Virus record (IMG/VR): IMGVR_UViG_3300044591_001459
Location: 1-21,983 of that record
Reading direction: 5' to 3' (one strand)
DNA length: 21,983 nt
Source: a virus
Part shown: one piece after another, positions 9,824 to 21,900 of the stretch
Position numbering within the stretch: the first letter of the stretch is position 1
How the letters are laid out: each line of letters starts with the position of its first letter
Notes under the pieces: generated by a model
Told to the model about the DNA's origin: nothing
Databases searched by the model: none
The model's input: the letters and a program-made list of their open reading frames with translations, nothing else
Position numbers and translations under genes: made by a program

Positions 9824-9848
9824 TAAACCGCACTACATGCGGTATGAT
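9820..9848 (+). promoter_or_regulatory. Predicted sigma70-type promoter nested before a terminator
   Basis: -35 CTGATA (9820-9825; 4 of 6 consensus), exact 17-base spacer, -10 TATGAT (9843-9848; 5 of 6). The -35 overlaps the capsid stop codon. The spacer contains CCGCA/TGCGG (9828-9832, 9838-9842). Expected transcription start about 9855, inside the left arm of the terminator. Prediction from sequence only. Confidence 0.4.
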
Positions 9849-9850
9849 AT

Positions 9851-9874
9851 GGGCCTCATCCGAGGCCCTTTTTT
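9851..9874 (+). terminator. Intrinsic terminator after the major capsid gene
   Basis: Stem GGGCCTC (9851-9857), loop ATCC, GAGGCCC (9862-9868), followed by six T (9869-9874). The HNH gene ATG begins one base later, at 9876. Confidence 0.9.
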
Positions 9875-9875
9875 C

Positions 9876-10385
9876 ATGGAACTGCGCCCCATCCCCTCTG
9901 TAATCGGTTACAGCGCATCAAAAAATGGAGAAATTATCAGCCACCACAAGCTGGAGCCCTTCGCACTGAAGGCAACAAATCACACACAGGGGTACAAACA
10001 AGTAAATCTCAAAACGGTAAAAGGTTTCCGCACAAGACTGGTACACGTACTGGTGCTAGAAGCGTGGGTCGGGCCACGTCCTGAAAAACACGTGACCAAT
10101 CACATAAACGGGGACAAGACGGACAATCGCCTAGAGAACTTGGAGTACGTGACGCAAACAGAAAACATGCGTCACTCATACGCTATGGGTCTGAGTCCGA
10201 AGCCCCCCACACGATACGGCGAAGATCTTAAACATCTTGCCAAGATGACAACAGAAAAAGTCCTGGCTATGCGAGCTGAAACAGACCGCGAGCCAGGTTA
10301 TCTAGAGCGTTTTGGAGTTAAGTACGGTATCAGTTCTGCAACAGTATCCAAAATACTGTTGCGTCAAACTTGGAAGCACATCTAA
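9876..10385 (+). CDS. HNH homing-type endonuclease with C-terminal HTH
   Basis: 169 residues from ATG 9876. The frame is open upstream to an ATG at 9837, but residues IPSVIGYSASKNGEIISHH at the start of the shorter form match the usual beginning of NUMOD4-type HNH nucleases, so 9876 is preferred. The HNH core is H57, then T74-N75-H76-I77-N78-G79-D80, N84 and N88-L89-E90-Y91-V92-T93; N75 replaces the common Asp, a known variant in this family. Residues about 124-169 (TTEKVLAMRAETD, LERFGVKYGISSATVSKILL, RQTWKHI) are a helix-turn-helix typical of homing nuclease specificity domains. It sits directly behind the capsid terminator and ends 1 base from a convergent gene. It is AT-richer than its neighbours: a mobile insertion. 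Confidence 0.88.
   Translation: MELRPIPSVIGYSASKNGEIISHHKLEPFALKATNHTQGYKQVNLKTVKGFRTRLVHVLVLEAWVGPRPEKHVTNHINGDKTDNRLENLEYVTQTENMRHSYAMGLSPKPPTRYGEDLKHLAKMTTEKVLAMRAETDREPGYLERFGVKYGISSATVSKILLRQTWKHI
10338..10362. repeat. Perfect 10-bp inverted repeat near the end of the HNH gene
   Basis: GCAACAGTAT (10338-10347), loop CCAAA, ATACTGTTGC (10353-10362). It lies in the codons of the HTH recognition region, 25 bases beyond the stop of the convergent minus-strand gene. No T-run follows in either direction. Confidence 0.7.
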
Positions 10386-12816: not shown

Positions 12817-13563
12817 ATGGCCACCGTTCTTTCGGGCACCTCCGGCGCCCTGTACTACTCCCCCGCTGGTACGTCCGTTACCACGCTCGCCGCAACCGCC
12901 TTCCCCTCCACCGGCTCCAACATCACCGTTGGCACCTACCTCGGCTTCAAGGTCAACGATCCCGTGACCCTGACCTACCCCGTCGGCGCCACGACCACCA
13001 ACGCAATCGCCGCTGGTGCGTACTTCGTCAAGACTTACGTCCCCGCCACCGGCATCATGACCATCAGCTCGACGGCTGGTGGCGCTGCCGCTACGGCAAC
13101 CGCTCAACCCTCCGTGTTTGGCGCGAACTTCGCCAGCATCGTGTACACCGCCCCAGTAGCTGTGGGCAGCGTGCGCGACTGGAGCTTTGAGATCACCCGC
13201 TCCGAGATCGACGTCACCACCATCGGCCAGGCAGCCACCCAGTACGCCCCCTTCCGCAACTACATCACCGGCTTTGCGGACGGTTCTGGCACTGCTACGG
13301 TCTACACGACCGACGACGACACGGCACTGTCCAGCCGCATGATCGAGGACGTGATCCAGTTCAACCAAACTGGCGCCACGGTCAAGCTGTACATCGACCG
13401 CATCTCGGTCAGCGGCACCGTGAACGACACCCTCAGCCGTTCCATCACCGTGCCCGTGATCCTGACCTCGGCCAGCCTCACCGTCAACCCCGACGACGGC
13501 CAGAGCGTGGAAATCGCCTTCCGCCCGAGCGCTGCTCCCACCTTCGACCTCTACAAGTCCTGA
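12817..13563 (+). CDS. Major tail tube protein
   Basis: 248 residues. It is Thr/Ser/Ala/Gly-rich and almost entirely beta, as expected for tube proteins: N-terminal insertion-like region (VLSGTSGALYYSPAGTSV), internal strands (FASIVYTAPVAVGSVRDWSF, EITRSEIDVTTIGQAATQYA, PFRNYITGFADGSGTATVYT), and closing strands (SITVPVILTSASLTVNPDDG, then QSVEIAFRPSAAP). W.FE.TR.EID.TT...... ..R.YI.G..DGSGTATV is the recognisable core: tube subunits in this class carry an I.VTT.G ...Y..G...G.G... motif. Position between terminator and chaperone genes and a strong terminator behind it fit a highly expressed gene. Stacked hexamers form the tail tube. Confidence 0.8.
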   Translation: MATVLSGTSGALYYSPAGTSVTTLAATAFPSTGSNITVGTYLGFKVNDPVTLTYPVGATTTNAIAAGAYFVKTYVPATGIMTISSTAGGAAATATAQPSVFGANFASIVYTAPVAVGSVRDWSFEITRSEIDVTTIGQAATQYAPFRNYITGFADGSGTATVYTTDDDTALSSRMIEDVIQFNQTGATVKLYIDRISVSGTVNDTLSRSITVPVILTSASLTVNPDDGQSVEIAFRPSAAPTFDLYKS

Positions 13564-13590
13564 TAACCTGCTGGTGTGATGGATCCCCGA

Positions 13591-13617
13591 ACCCCGGCTC
13601 TCCCGCCGGGGTTTTTT
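13591..13617 (+). terminator. Intrinsic terminator after the tail tube gene
   Basis: CCCCGGC (13592-13598), loop TCTCCC, GCCGGGG (13605-13611), six T (13612-13617). Flanking A and T extend the pairing by one. It lies 28 bases after the TGA. Confidence 0.92.
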
Positions 13618-13661: not shown

Positions 13662-14012
13662 ATGGCTGCCTCCGCACCTCTGAGCCCACTGGAACGCCTT
13701 CGCAAAGCGGCCAACCTGGAGCCCACCAAAAAGGAAGTTGTACTGAGCGACGGCTCCGTATTTGAGATGTGGGTGACGCCGCTGACCATGGCCGAGCGCG
13801 AGCGTGCCCAGAAGCAGGCCAAGTCCGACGACGCCACCGCCTTCGCCATCCAGCTGCTGATCAACAAAGCCTGCGATGACACTGGCGCCCGCATGTTCAA
13901 AGCCGCCGAACTCGACGTGCTCAAAAACGAAGTCAAAGACAAAGACCTCCAGGCCCTGATGCTGGCGATCCTGACCGACGATTCGGAGGAGACCGACACC
14001 AAAAGCGTTTGA
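13662..14012 (+). CDS. Tail assembly chaperone, short (G-like) form
   Basis: 116 residues. The sequence runs SPLERLRKAANLEPTKKEVV, a strand SDGSVFEMWVTPLTMAERER, then AQKQAKSDDATAFAIQLLIN, KACDDTGARMFKAAELDVLK and NEVKDKDLQALMLAILTDDS. The F.....PLTMAER...QK ... INK..D..G..MF pattern is that of tail assembly chaperones that bind the tape measure during tail assembly. It lies exactly between tail tube and tape measure. The zero frame ends at TGA 14010-14012, while an overlapping frame continues in good protein sequence to 14196, so a longer product is expected by frameshift. The gene starts at ATG 13662, 45 bases past the previous terminator. Confidence 0.85.
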   Translation: MAASAPLSPLERLRKAANLEPTKKEVVLSDGSVFEMWVTPLTMAERERAQKQAKSDDATAFAIQLLINKACDDTGARMFKAAELDVLKNEVKDKDLQALMLAILTDDSEETDTKSV

Positions 14013-14196
14013 GGCTGCCCTCAAAAAGGACACCTACCTCCAAACCCAGTTCTACGTTGCCGAAAAACTGGGCCTGACCTTGGCTGAACTCCGCAGCCGC
14101 ATGACCGAAGACGAACTACTCGGCTGGAGCCTGTACTACAAGATCCGCCACGACGCCGAGCAAGCCGCCATAGACAAGGCCAAACGCCGCCGCTAA
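14005..14196 (+). CDS. Frameshift extension of the tail assembly chaperone (T-like part of GT)
   Basis: The frame shifted by +1 (equivalently -2) is open from 13975 to TAA 14194-14196. Read from 14005 it gives 63 residues: AFEAALKKDTYLQTQFYVAE, KLGLTLAELRSRMTEDELLG, WSLYYKIRHDAEQAAIDKAK, RRR. The FYVAEKLG.TL.EL...M...EL..W..YY pattern is the usual T-domain of chaperone pairs. It has no own start except an ATG at 14101, which would leave only 31 residues. Slippage of the AAA codon at 14001-14003 onto AAA at 14002-14004 joins it to the first 114 residues for a 177-residue product. A one-base sequencing or assembly error would look the same. Confidence 0.75.
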   Translation, partial: AFEAALKKDTYLQTQFYVAEKLGLTLAELRSRMTEDELLGWSLYYKIRHDAEQAAIDKAKRRR

Positions 14197-14211
14197 CCCG
14201 GCGGCTTTTTT
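14186..14211 (+). terminator. Intrinsic terminator overlapping the chaperone extension stop
   Basis: GCCGCCG (14186-14192), loop CTAACC, CGGCGGC (14199-14205), six T (14206-14211). The TAA stop of the frameshifted product lies in the loop, so ribosomes finishing the long form will cover the hairpin. Confidence 0.88.
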
Positions 14212-14252: not shown

Positions 14253-17200
14253 GTGGCCTATACAGCCGACATCAACATTGTCGTCAGAGGCCAAGCAGCT
14301 GTAAATACTCTGCAGACAAAGCTTACAGAGCTAGGTCAGAAAATAGATGACATCGCTAAAAAAAGGATTGGTCCTACAACTACACTTGACACCTTTAACG
14401 CTCAACTTGCCGAAGCCGCACGTAGATTAAATCAAGTAGCCGCTGGAACTGATCTAGAAAAAACCGCAATTGACAACTACGTTACCGCTTTGGGTAACGC
14501 TAACGCAGCAACAGATCGACAGAATAAACTCATACAAGAGCAGATTGATTTACGCCAAGCCTCGACACAAGGGGTTCAAGAACTAGCTGCCGTACAGCAG
14601 CACCTATACAACAAACAAGTACAACTAGAAAACTCAGAACTGGATGCTAAAGCAGCTGCAGTACAAGCTGCTCTAGACAAACAAGCTGCTGCCGCCGCAG
14701 AGAGTGCCGCTCAGATTGAGCTACTTAATAGGCGACAGGCTGATTTCATTGACCGCACCAATGAAGCGGCTCAGGCCGCGAGTCGTCAAACGGCCGAGTT
14801 CTATCGCCAGCAGCGTATAGCCAGAGAAGTCGCAAAACTTAATGCTGCTGCTCCGCCTCCACAGCTGCTACTTGCACCAGCAGCTCCTGGGGCACCAGCT
14901 ATGAGCGGCGGCGCTCGTTCGTTGATTACCGGGCCTGTTGAGCGCCTTGGAGGTGCTCGAACGCAAGACCAGGCGGATACTGCCCTGCGCTTTGCACAAG
15001 CCTTAAAAGAGCAAGTACGCCCCCTATCTCAGTTTGTTCCGCTGTACGCCGGTATTTTCCAGCAAGCCGAAAAACTATCCCGTGTCAAAGCATTGCCGGA
15101 TAGCGCAATGCTTAATGCCGCTGGACGTGGACTACAAACAATCGAGGGCATCGAAAGACGCCGCCTTGAACGCCTGGAGCGCATCCGACAGAAACTGCAG
15201 CAGATAGCCGAATACGAAGCATCTAAAGGCAGGATGGGTAACGCCGGCTTTGGCCCGCAAGGCCCTGCCATGCCCCCTGGTGGTATTCCAAAGAAAGGTG
15301 GCGGCGGGCTCGGTTTTAATCCGAATCCCAGTGGAGAGAACATGGCACTGGGCTTGGGCTTCCCGCTGCTGTTTGGCGGCGGCGCTGGTCAAGTGGCTGG
15401 CGGCCTTATCGGTTCCTTCTTCGGTGAAGGTTTCGGTGGGCAGATCCTTGGTTCCGCCATCGGCCAGATCCTCGAAGACGCCCAGCGGCGCATCACCGAA
15501 ATCGGCAACGCGCTGGACATGCTCGACATGGACAAGTTGCGCGAAAGCGTCGTATTCGTCAACGCCGAGCTGGATACAACTGTCCGCCGCCTCATCGAAG
15601 CCGGCGACGCCCAAAAAGCCCAAGCCATCGCCGCTGACGCCGTGGCAACTCAAACCGGCATGATCCCTCAGGCAGTTGCCGACATATCGGGCAACGCAAA
15701 CGTGCTCGTCAACATCTGGAACCAGTTCTTAGGTGCTGTATCCGGCACACTATCTATTATCGGCGTTCCGTTTGTTAGTGCTCTATCGCTAATTCTTAGC
15801 GGATTCACAAAAATTCTTCAATATACAAACCTTCTTGTCACCACAGTAGGTGCCTGGGGCGCATCGCTTGCTAGACAAGTAATGAATAAGTTTCCGTGGA
15901 TTGCACGTTACTACAATCGCCTACTTAACGGCACAAAAGCCATCACGGAAGAGGAAGAAAAGCGCAACGCTGTGCTCCAAGCTGCCATCGACAAACAAGT
16001 CAACCAAAATTACAATACTGCCAAAAATCTGGCCCTTGAAAAACAACGCACTCTCGGACGCACTGCAGCCGAAAAACTCATCAACATCGAACTAGATCGC
16101 GGACTAGAAATCAATCGGATAAACGCCGAGTACGAAGAAAAGATCCTGCAATTCCGTAGAGATAACGCAGGTGCTACCGCAGCCCAAGTAGAAAAAGGCG
16201 TCCGGCAAATCCAAGTTGCACAAGCCCTAGCTATCGAGCAAGTACGCATAAAAACTCTGCTGCAGGAGCAGGGTTTAGCGATGGACGCTATTAACGAACG
16301 CTACGACCGCGCTGCCGAAGCCATCCGGCGTCAACAGACCGCCCTGGAGACAAGCAACAACGTCCGCCAGTCCCAGTTATCGGCCGAATCCGCACTCAAC
16401 GACCTGTACGGCGCCCAACTGGAGCGCCAGTATCAACTCGCCACTACTTCTACCCAGCGGTACAACATCGCCATTGCTCAGTTCCAGCAGCAAGTACGTG
16501 CTGCACAAATTGAATACGTCCAATCAAAACTAAACAACCAGCTGCTCATACAAAGAGCTGCTATCGAAGCAAAACTTGCAGAGCTGCAGTATCGCAAGTA
16601 TGTAGCACAAAAACAACTCACTATTCTTGAAGCTGCGCGAAACGGGGCAACCTCAAAGCAAATTGATGCTATCGCATCTGGTTACGACGTGCTCTTGGGT
16701 ACGCAAATTGATGTTGTACAGTTCGCCTACGATCAAGTAGAAGCGGCTAAACAAATTGCAGCTAATCAAGACACCATTGCCGCAGCTGTGTATAAAACAA
16801 AAATAGTTCAGCTAGAAGGCGCACTTGCCCAAAAACTAACTACAACAGAAATAGGCCTGTCACAAAAGAACGCCGACAGCCTCGCCGGTTCCCTTGCCGT
16901 AGCAGCCTTCCAGGCTATAGATGTCAAGAATCAGTCTAGCCAACTTGCCGGTGTAATCCAAGTCGGAACTCAAAAAACACGCATACTTGCTTCCGCAATG
17001 TCCGATGTCGCGTATAACGCAAATATCGCTGCTAACAATATAGAGCGGGCTTTCCGTACTGGCGGACTAGCCGGCAGCAATAAACAACCAGCAGCAAAAA
17101 CACTTAGGGGTTCGATAACAGTCGGCAATAAAACAACAAAACTGTATGCTGCTGATGGTGCTTTTTGGCCTGGAGGCTTCAAGGCATTCGCCAAAGGTGG

Positions 17201-17516
17201 CGTCGTAAATCGCCCCACGCTCGGCCTTATCGGTGAAGGCGGCGAATCCGAATACATCGTGCCCGAGTCCAAGGCCGCCGGTTTCGCCACCAGCTACCTC
17301 TTCGGCAAACGCGGCGAAGACGCCATCCCCTCCGAAGGTTCCGGCGCTGGAGCACCCCCTCTTACAATCAACGTAACCACCGGCCCGGTGATGGAGTTCG
17401 ACGGCCAGCGCTATGTCACCGTGACCGACATGGAACGTGCCATGCGGTTGACCGCTGAAGGCGTGATCGGCCGTCTGCGCACGCCATCAGCACGCATCGC
17501 GCTAGGTATTGCCTGA
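14253..17516 (+). CDS. Tail tape measure protein
   Basis: 1087 residues, by far the longest gene. Start GTG 14253, with GGA at 14242-14244. The N-terminus is helical and Ala/Gln/Leu-rich (INIVVRGQAAVNTLQTKLTE, LNQVAAGTDLEKTAIDNYVT). A Gly-rich hydrophobic stretch lies at about 362-410 (MALGLGFPLLFGGGAGQVAG, GLIGSFFGEGFGG) and a second at about 481-544 (IIGVPFVSALSLILSGF), likely membrane-active during DNA entry. Long coiled-coil helices follow to about 950. The C-terminus has FAKGGVVNRPTLGLIGEGGE, SEYIVPESK, the hallmark ending of tape measures. At about 1.5 angstrom per residue the tail would be near 160 nm, so a siphovirus. Codon use changes within the gene (GC-rich at about 15230-15680 and after 17200, AT-richer elsewhere). 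Confidence 0.95.
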   Translation: MAYTADINIVVRGQAAVNTLQTKLTELGQKIDDIAKKRIGPTTTLDTFNAQLAEAARRLNQVAAGTDLEKTAIDNYVTALGNANAATDRQNKLIQEQIDLRQASTQGVQELAAVQQHLYNKQVQLENSELDAKAAAVQAALDKQAAAAAESAAQIELLNRRQADFIDRTNEAAQAASRQTAEFYRQQRIAREVAKLNAAAPPPQLLLAPAAPGAPAMSGGARSLITGPVERLGGARTQDQADTALRFAQALKEQVRPLSQFVPLYAGIFQQAEKLSRVKALPDSAMLNAAGRGLQTIEGIERRRLERLERIRQKLQQIAEYEASKGRMGNAGFGPQGPAMPPGGIPKKGGGGLGFNPNPSGENMALGLGFPLLFGGGAGQVAGGLIGSFFGEGFGGQILGSAIGQILEDAQRRITEIGNALDMLDMDKLRESVVFVNAELDTTVRRLIEAGDAQKAQAIAADAVATQTGMIPQAVADISGNANVLVNIWNQFLGAVSGTLSIIGVPFVSALSLILSGFTKILQYTNLLVTTVGAWGASLARQVMNKFPWIARYYNRLLNGTKAITEEEEKRNAVLQAAIDKQVNQNYNTAKNLALEKQRTLGRTAAEKLINIELDRGLEINRINAEYEEKILQFRRDNAGATAAQVEKGVRQIQVAQALAIEQVRIKTLLQEQGLAMDAINERYDRAAEAIRRQQTALETSNNVRQSQLSAESALNDLYGAQLERQYQLATTSTQRYNIAIAQFQQQVRAAQIEYVQSKLNNQLLIQRAAIEAKLAELQYRKYVAQKQLTILEAARNGATSKQIDAIASGYDVLLGTQIDVVQFAYDQVEAAKQIAANQDTIAAAVYKTKIVQLEGALAQKLTTTEIGLSQKNADSLAGSLAVAAFQAIDVKNQSSQLAGVIQVGTQKTRILASAMSDVAYNANIAANNIERAFRTGGLAGSNKQPAAKTLRGSITVGNKTTKLYAADGAFWPGGFKAFAKGGVVNRPTLGLIGEGGESEYIVPESKAAGFATSYLFGKRGEDAIPSEGSGAGAPPLTINVTTGPVMEFDGQRYVTVTDMERAMRLTAEGVIGRLRTPSARIALGIA

Positions 17517-20968: not shown

Positions 20969-21337
20969 ATGGCAGCCCCCAATATCAAGAGCGGCAGCTC
21001 CGTCACGACGGTCACCGGCAAGACCGTGGGCTACGCCGTCACCACCTCAATGGCTGCAGCGCTGAGCAATGGCTCCAGCAGCGGCAAGGTGCTGAAAATC
21101 AATTCGGTGTACTGCGCCAACGTGGACGGCACCGCAGCAGCCGACATCAGCCTGGAGCACTACAACGGCACGACGGGGTTTGCGATCGGCAAGACCATCG
21201 CCGTACCGGCTGACGCTACGCAGGTGCTCGTGACACGCGAGGCTTACATCTACTTGGAGGAAGGCCACAGCCTCCGCGCACAGGCCAGCGCCACTGGCGA
21301 CCTGGAGCTGGTCATCTCCTATGAGGACATCAGCTGA
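20969..21337 (+). CDS. Small beta-rich virion protein
   Basis: 122 residues from ATG 20969 to TGA 21337, which overlaps the next ATG (TGATG). The sequence (TTSMAAALSNGSSSGKVLKI, NSVYCANVDGTAAADISLEH, YNGTTGFAIGKTIAVPADAT, QVLVTREAYIYLEEGHSLRA, then ATGDLELVISYEDIS) is a single beta-sandwich of the kind found in phage appendage proteins that have a N.VY..N....A..V....Y....G......I.VPA.....V.....YI.L.EG..L arrangement. No ribosome site is evident in the 50-base gap before it. The name of the family is not known to me; a tail-end or appendage protein is likely. Confidence 0.65.
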   Translation: MAAPNIKSGSSVTTVTGKTVGYAVTTSMAAALSNGSSSGKVLKINSVYCANVDGTAAADISLEHYNGTTGFAIGKTIAVPADATQVLVTREAYIYLEEGHSLRAQASATGDLELVISYEDIS

Positions 21338-21900
21338 TGCTTGGCTTTAACGGTGGCTTAATGGGCGTCAGGCGGACGCCTACAACCAGCTCGGCATCGG
21401 GACTGTGGTTTCAGAATGAGCAGAGCGTGGCACAAAGGGCGGGGATTTGGCCTTTTCCTGGGGCATACACAGCAAGGTACTTTCGGTTAGCAAATTTTGC
21501 CAACACGGCACTTGATAGTGATACTTTAGACTTTGGCGAGATTGAAGTTTACGACGGCAACACTCTGCATACCGGAATTACATGCACAAGCAACATCACA
21601 TGGGATGCCGGTCAAAATAGTTATCTTGTTGATGGCATTACAAGCACAGCCACCCGTTCGTACGTTCAAAGCTGGAGCAGCATACGGTCAACGGCGACAA
21701 TCACACTGGATCTCGGCTCAACTAAAACCGTGAGCCACATAAAGATCTTTTGCCTCTACGGTGCAAGTAGATTTCCCGAATCTTTTGACCTACAAAGCTC
21801 GGCTGACAACACAAGTTACGGCTACGTTGCCACAGTAACAGTTGGAACTTTAACTTCTATAGGTGGTTTCGCTTATTCCAGCGCCAAGGTGGCCATTTAG
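21337..21900 (+). CDS. Tail-end protein with a discoidin-like (F5/8 type C) carbohydrate-binding domain
   Basis: 187 residues. The first 40 (MLGFNGGLMGVRRTPTTSSA, then SGLWFQNEQSVAQRAGIWP) are the short N-terminal anchor I associate with cyanophage tail proteins. Residues about 44-187 look like a galactose-binding-like sandwich: YTARYFRLANFANTALDSDT, LDFGEIEVYDG, LVDGITSTATRSYVQSWSS, TATITLDLGSTKTVSHIKIF, then FPESFDLQSSADNTSYGYVA. The pairing of ...YFRL......L...EIEVYDG with I.LDLGS...V..I.IF is the discoidin signature. Such domains bind sugars or membrane surfaces, so this is a candidate host-recognition module. AT-richer than 20969. Confidence 0.72.
   Translation: MLGFNGGLMGVRRTPTTSSASGLWFQNEQSVAQRAGIWPFPGAYTARYFRLANFANTALDSDTLDFGEIEVYDGNTLHTGITCTSNITWDAGQNSYLVDGITSTATRSYVQSWSSIRSTATITLDLGSTKTVSHIKIFCLYGASRFPESFDLQSSADNTSYGYVATVTVGTLTSIGGFAYSSAKVAI

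Follow-up and report, generated by a model that had tools for sequence, protein, structure and literature searches.

A probable +1 frameshift at a conserved AAA AGC site in the tail assembly chaperone gene of an aquatic phage family

Frameshifting in phage tail assembly chaperones

A conserved G-T frameshift was reportedly described by Xu, Hendrix and Duda in 2004. The frameshift of this pair of phage tail genes has been reviewed (PMC5009743). In phage lambda, one gene located between the tube and tape measure genes yields a short chaperone (gpG) and a long one (gpGT) by means of a frameshift near the end of G, with tRNA-Lys at the site. Lambda and most other phages shift by -1 on a heptamer. 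Shifts of +1 and -2 are also documented in tail chaperones, the direction differing between phages; Mu uses -2, and the chaperone of Halorubrum virus HSTV-2 very likely uses +1 (PMC5009743). In actinophage chaperones, forward-shift sites were sought as runs of three or four identical bases, and no general motif for forward shifts has emerged so far (PMC10885494). Shifting by +1 in tail chaperones is known but rare, and within programmed frameshifting as a whole the +1 sites are the half that is poorly understood.

The locus described here resembles that of lambda in its position, its two predicted products and the tRNA-Lys expected at the site, but its apparent shift is +1, on AAA_A.GC. It shares the gene kind and the direction with HSTV-2 and the actinophages, which have other hosts; there is no evidence that their sites are homologous to the present one, and AAA_A.GC is not mentioned there (PMC5009743, PMC10885494). 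The +1 sites of yeast, CUU_A.GG_C in Ty1 and ABP140, CUU_A.GU_U in EST3 and GCG_A.GU_U in Ty3 (PMC12661321), have in common with it an AGN-box codon in the A site and a G-initial codon in the +1 frame (NNN_A.GN_N), but they involve the eukaryotic ribosome, other P-site tRNAs and unrelated genes, and the perfect re-pairing possible at the present site sets it apart. A search of the open-access literature turned up neither an AAA_A.GC site of this kind nor a switch of direction at a point of recombination. Three features appear to be new: the recurrence of AAA_A.GC, the lack of such a site in the cultured relatives that were found (all of them -1), and the recombination at the slip site.

The chaperone locus

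The window, i.e. the whole stretch analysed, is a virus record of 21,983 bases whose structural module is siphophage-like and comprises genes for terminase, portal, major head protein, tail terminator, a probable tail tube protein, G, T, the tape measure protein and tail tip proteins. All genes of the tail region discussed here are on the plus strand. The probable tube gene (12817-13563) is assigned by its position, a family search having given no convincing match, and its counterpart in phage S-2L is annotated as major tail protein. It is followed by G (13662-14012) and by the tape measure gene (14253-17516; phrog_167, E 9.8e-5), an order identical to that in S-2L. The C terminus of the tape measure protein matches those of phages S-LBS1 and S-CBS1.

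G encodes a protein of 116 amino acids, ending in EETDTKSV, which matches the tail assembly chaperone family phrog_344 (E 4.5e-6) and, more strongly, phrog_20784 (E 6.6e-32); phrog_344 was also matched by 27 of the 38 members tested. The best PDB match of an AlphaFold model of G (mean pLDDT 70, three rows from annotated records having been left out of its input) was the HK97 chaperone 2ob9 (E 1.4e-4, probability 1.00), yet the identity between the two is 16%. A sequence-profile search of the PDB gave no match for G, and for T only weak matches to unrelated proteins. T belongs to tail-protein families, phrog_337 and phrog_14766 being matched by 35 and 33 of 37 aligned relatives, respectively. 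Predicted fold, profile matches and synteny thus support the assignment of G as a tail assembly chaperone, as had been proposed from the sequence alone, and place it with the lambda G/HK97 type. In gene order, family and frames, the locus follows the lambda G/GT arrangement: G lies between the (positionally defined) tube gene and the tape measure gene, has a chaperone family and fold (phrog_344, 2ob9), and is followed by a C-terminal T in another frame near its end, as in 189 distinct sequences described below.

The 3' end of G reads GAC ACC AAA AGC GTT TGA, with the UGA at 14010-14012. The T-like domain lies in the +1 frame, which is open from 13975 to 14196, and not in the -1 frame, exactly as the sequence-only reading had it. 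Both frames are open over 38 nt (13975-14012), an overlap that the relatives narrow to 17 nt or fewer. Within it, the codons AAA AGC (14001-14006; Lys, then Ser), read as AAA A|GC, form the putative slip site, and the T-like extension, phrog_337 and phrog_14766 tail protein, spans 14002-14196 with the stop TAA at 14194-14196. Joined at AAA, G and T would give a protein of 177 residues (DTK-AFEAALKK at the junction, RRR at the end), with which the closest relatives align end to end. The Lys at the junction of the fusion is a trypsin cleavage point.

Two ORFs of the HNH_3 endonuclease family (Pfam PF13392, E about 1e-14), at 2057-2839 on the minus (opposite) strand and 9837-10385 on the plus strand, sit between structural genes and are likely homing endonucleases. 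Near the record end (21337-21900), a protein with an F5/8 type C (discoidin-like) carbohydrate-binding domain is a candidate receptor-binding protein.

Conservation of the slip site

Searches of viral contigs and isolate records yielded 438 tail assembly chaperone loci with both halves, representing 355 distinct sequences, mostly from uncultured viruses; a scan of genome contigs with a KBS-like query found no relative. T lies in the +1 frame in 189 of the distinct sequences and in the -1 frame in 164, while two were scored as single-frame. One of the latter (L079) was considered as a fused gene, which was rejected, since it belongs to the -1 members and has an indel upstream.

A zero-frame AAA AGN occurs within the overlap of all 189 +1 sequences (AGC in 180, AGT in 6, AGA in 3), in the frame relation seen in the window; these sequences are related by descent, so that this and similar counts are not independent trials. 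In the window (14001-14003) and in each of the 189, AAA is the sole overlap codon that could re-pair perfectly one base 3', AAA onto AAA, which bears out what had been noticed in the window itself. The overlap is as short as 8 nt for 59 members, while 35 have 11 nt and 23 have 17 nt. A stop codon stands immediately before the AAA of the +1 frame, and closes that frame, in 113 of the 189. Column entropy was compared in three groups that are roughly 34-54% identical to one another in G protein sequence; in each, the freely varying third positions are those of the zero frame up to AAA and those of the +1 frame from there on, which locates the frame switch at this codon.

The Lys codon of the site is AAA in 100% of the +1 sequences (189/189) and never AAG, as would be expected because re-pairing on AAAA requires AAA; elsewhere in the G genes, AAA makes up 39% and 40% of Lys codons in the window's group and the L/K group, and 77% in the third group. 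AAA AGN was found in frame at no other place in 68 G genes of the window's group. Similarly, AGC occupies the A site in 72 of 73 members of the AG-345-A17 group, compared with 12% of Ser codons elsewhere. Immediately upstream of AAA, the codon differs between sequences (ACC, AAC, TTA, TTG, ATG, CTG, CTC, GCC or TCC), which leaves AAA AG as the conserved core. G is invariant as second base of the A-site codon, implying that the AGN codon, or the G-initial codon of the +1 frame, is itself selected. Judged by codon choice, the conservation of the slip site is greater than amino-acid need.

A separate regularity is the GA-initial codon two positions before the slip-site Lys in all aligned +1 members. 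It encodes Asp, or Asp/Glu in the AG-345-A17 group, and a D-x-K motif is also found in many -1 members.

Proposed mechanism and alternatives

With high confidence, though from sequence comparison, 13662-14196 is taken to encode a chaperone of the lambda G/GT type, whose long form would arise by a +1 slip of tRNA-Lys at AAA AGC. The majority of ribosomes would terminate at UGA 14010-14012, giving the short form. In a minority, peptidyl-tRNA-Lys would be in the P site after translation of GAC ACC AAA, with AGC waiting in the A site; while the latter is vacant, the tRNA would move one base forward, from AAA to the overlapping AAA. GCG would then be decoded as Ala, and reading would continue to UAA 14194-14196, producing the 177-residue fusion. 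We infer that the slip takes place in vivo, at an efficiency that leaves the fusion the minor product, and that decoding of AGC is the slow step. If the usual roles apply, G would bind the tape measure protein and T would recruit tube subunits.

A conventional -1 shift on X_XXY_YYZ does not apply here, the T frame being +1; slippery heptamers do occur in -1 relatives from this family. A +1 slip at a later codon, either AGC or the codon before the stop (GTT UGA, similar to the shifty stop of prfB), appears improbable. In its favour, UGA comes shortly after the slip site in members of the window's group, and +1 shifting is stimulated by a stop codon in the A site. However, the stop adjoins AGC only in part of one group, the A-site codon at the conserved site is AGC and not a stop, the codon before UGA (GTT, GCT, CCT, ACT or ATT) is mostly unable to re-pair, and AGC would pair poorly with GCN. 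A later slip would also make no difference between AAA and AAG.

A -2 slip as in Mu, which was left open in the sequence-only reading as the other way into the same frame, would add one residue, and the frame change by itself cannot separate it from +1. The relatives speak against it: in 113 of the 189, a -2 slip would place tRNA-Lys on a stop codon (TAA or TGA; the window has CCA there), and the constant AAA in place of AAG would have no reason. The +1 part of that reading is therefore retained, and -2 is considered quite improbable.

An assembly error, a broken gene or a separate T gene with its own start hardly comes into question. In isolate records G is indeed annotated with no T attached to it, and phage genes often overlap. 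Nevertheless, the same arrangement recurs in eight contigs of independent metagenomic origin, which match the window at 97-98% identity across the joined protein; this excludes the one-base indel for which a check had been advised. Moreover, in 113 relatives a stop codon immediately precedes the opening of the T frame, no ATG, GTG or TTG is present between the opening of the T frame and 40 nt past the site in 144 of the 189, and the G-T junction is conserved across divergent groups. Transcriptional slippage, with a base gained or lost in the A run of the site, can practically be dismissed, as this run has only four A and the sites of such slippage have a far longer one, of more than seven (PMC3711429).

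As for what might stimulate the +1 slip of tRNA-Lys, the A-site AGN is conserved, yet AGC makes up 32% of Ser codons in the G genes of the window's group and is not rare, so a stall at a rare codon is not obvious. A Shine-Dalgarno-like GGAGG (13985-13989), 11 nt from the P-site codon, was rejected as a stimulator since it is not conserved among relatives; in the prfB arrangement such an element stands only a few nt 5' of that codon. A 7-bp hairpin (TTTGAGG-CTGC-CCTCAAA, 14008-14025, -9.0 kcal/mol) lies just 3' of the slip site, but it is not conserved in +1 relatives, and it was likewise rejected because large +1 groups have no consensus structure; an Rfam search at the slip site found no family. 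In contrast, the -1 group similar to KBS-S-2A has a strong 3' hairpin (mean z -2.7). This difference fits a +1 mechanism, in which a slow A-site codon usually weighs more than 3' structure (PMC5009743).

The 189 sequences are natural variants of a single, apparently bacterial, +1 site whose core does not vary, and near-identical -1 relatives are available as controls. Thus, the roles of P-site Lys slippage and of the A-site AGN codon become directly testable.

Relatives with a -1 frame and switching of direction

Every isolate examined has T in the -1 frame: KBS-S-2A, S-2L, MED4-184, MED4-117, S-H1, S-LBS1, S-CBS1, S-CBS3, two Pelagibacter phages and Moraxella phage Mcat29. Their slip sites and those of other -1 relatives are C_CCA_AAR, A_AAA_AAC/A or A_AAG. 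The sole named record with +1 is the single-cell virus AG-345-A17. KBS-S-2A, S-H1, S-2L and MED4-184/P-HS2 are sequence relatives of the window's G and/or T, and S-LBS1, S-CBS1 and S-CBS3 are related to the window only via the tape measure C terminus. In all of these cultured phages the chaperone gene is located directly before the tape measure gene, as in the window, but they differ in having T in -1 (A_AAA_AAC, C_CCA_AAG, or A_AAG in MED4-184), and their annotations either lack T or leave it unjoined. The host of the window virus is likely cyanobacterial, because Synechococcus or Prochlorococcus is the host of those cultured matches of the fusion protein for which one is recorded.

A tree of joined G and T needs at least five changes of direction, their number and polarity being uncertain because of the shortness of the T alignment and because quick searches supplied the SH-aLRT support values. 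Direction cannot be read from a single tree: in that of G, the +1 window group is interspersed with -1 relatives of 82% identity, and in that of T the two are separate, which ties direction to the cassette of T and tape measure. The +1 sequence L034 and the -1 sequence L071 agree at about 90% from the tube gene to the end of G (91% in the 700 nt before G, 86-97% within it). Identity then falls sharply, to 61% in T and 43% past it in the tape measure region, the break being at the slip site. In another member (L422), G belongs to the -1 group and T is nearest to +1 KBS-like members, the site being ATG AAA AGT. On these comparisons, shift direction seems to travel with an exchangeable T-tape measure cassette. 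A broader reading, towards which we lean without strong conviction, is that AAA_A.GC may be a self-sufficient bacterial +1 element that arose or spread repeatedly, and that a cassette of the site, T and the tape measure gene might recombine at the slip site onto a common G and tube, flipping the polarity and leaving the length and register of the fusion unchanged.

Whichever the shift direction, T is missed as the second half of the chaperone in annotations of these phages, a widespread aquatic family. For KBS-S-2A (L082), S-2L (L083), MED4-184 (L084) and S-H1 (L448), T is unannotated or given as a separate hypothetical protein that a -1 frameshift would join to G. In MED4-184 and the 70 MED4-184-like -1 sequences, A_AAG is preceded by NNA and there is no full heptamer; a hairpin is predicted after A_AAG in these members (alifold -8.3).

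Transcription terminators

An intrinsic terminator with its stem at 14186-14205 has the C-terminal Arg codons of the long form as its 5' arm and the stop TAA (14194-14196) in its loop, in agreement with the sequence-only reading. In the window's group, such a terminator with an enclosed long-form stop occurs in 56 of 63 -1 and 43 of 66 +1 members, i.e. about equally commonly, and in 42 of 43 members of the L group; it is absent from all 72 AG-345-A17-like (+1) and all 63 MED4-184-like members scored. A tie between the terminator and shift direction was accordingly rejected, and the enclosed stop is a lineage feature independent of direction. The coupling of frameshifting to termination that had been put forward is possible, but these counts give it no specific support.

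Another intrinsic terminator (13589-13614) lies between the tube gene and G. Every scored member of the window's group (66/66 and 57/57) has it, as do 26 of 26 members of the -1 KBS-like group, suggesting that transcription drops in steps from the tube gene via the chaperone gene to the tape measure gene.
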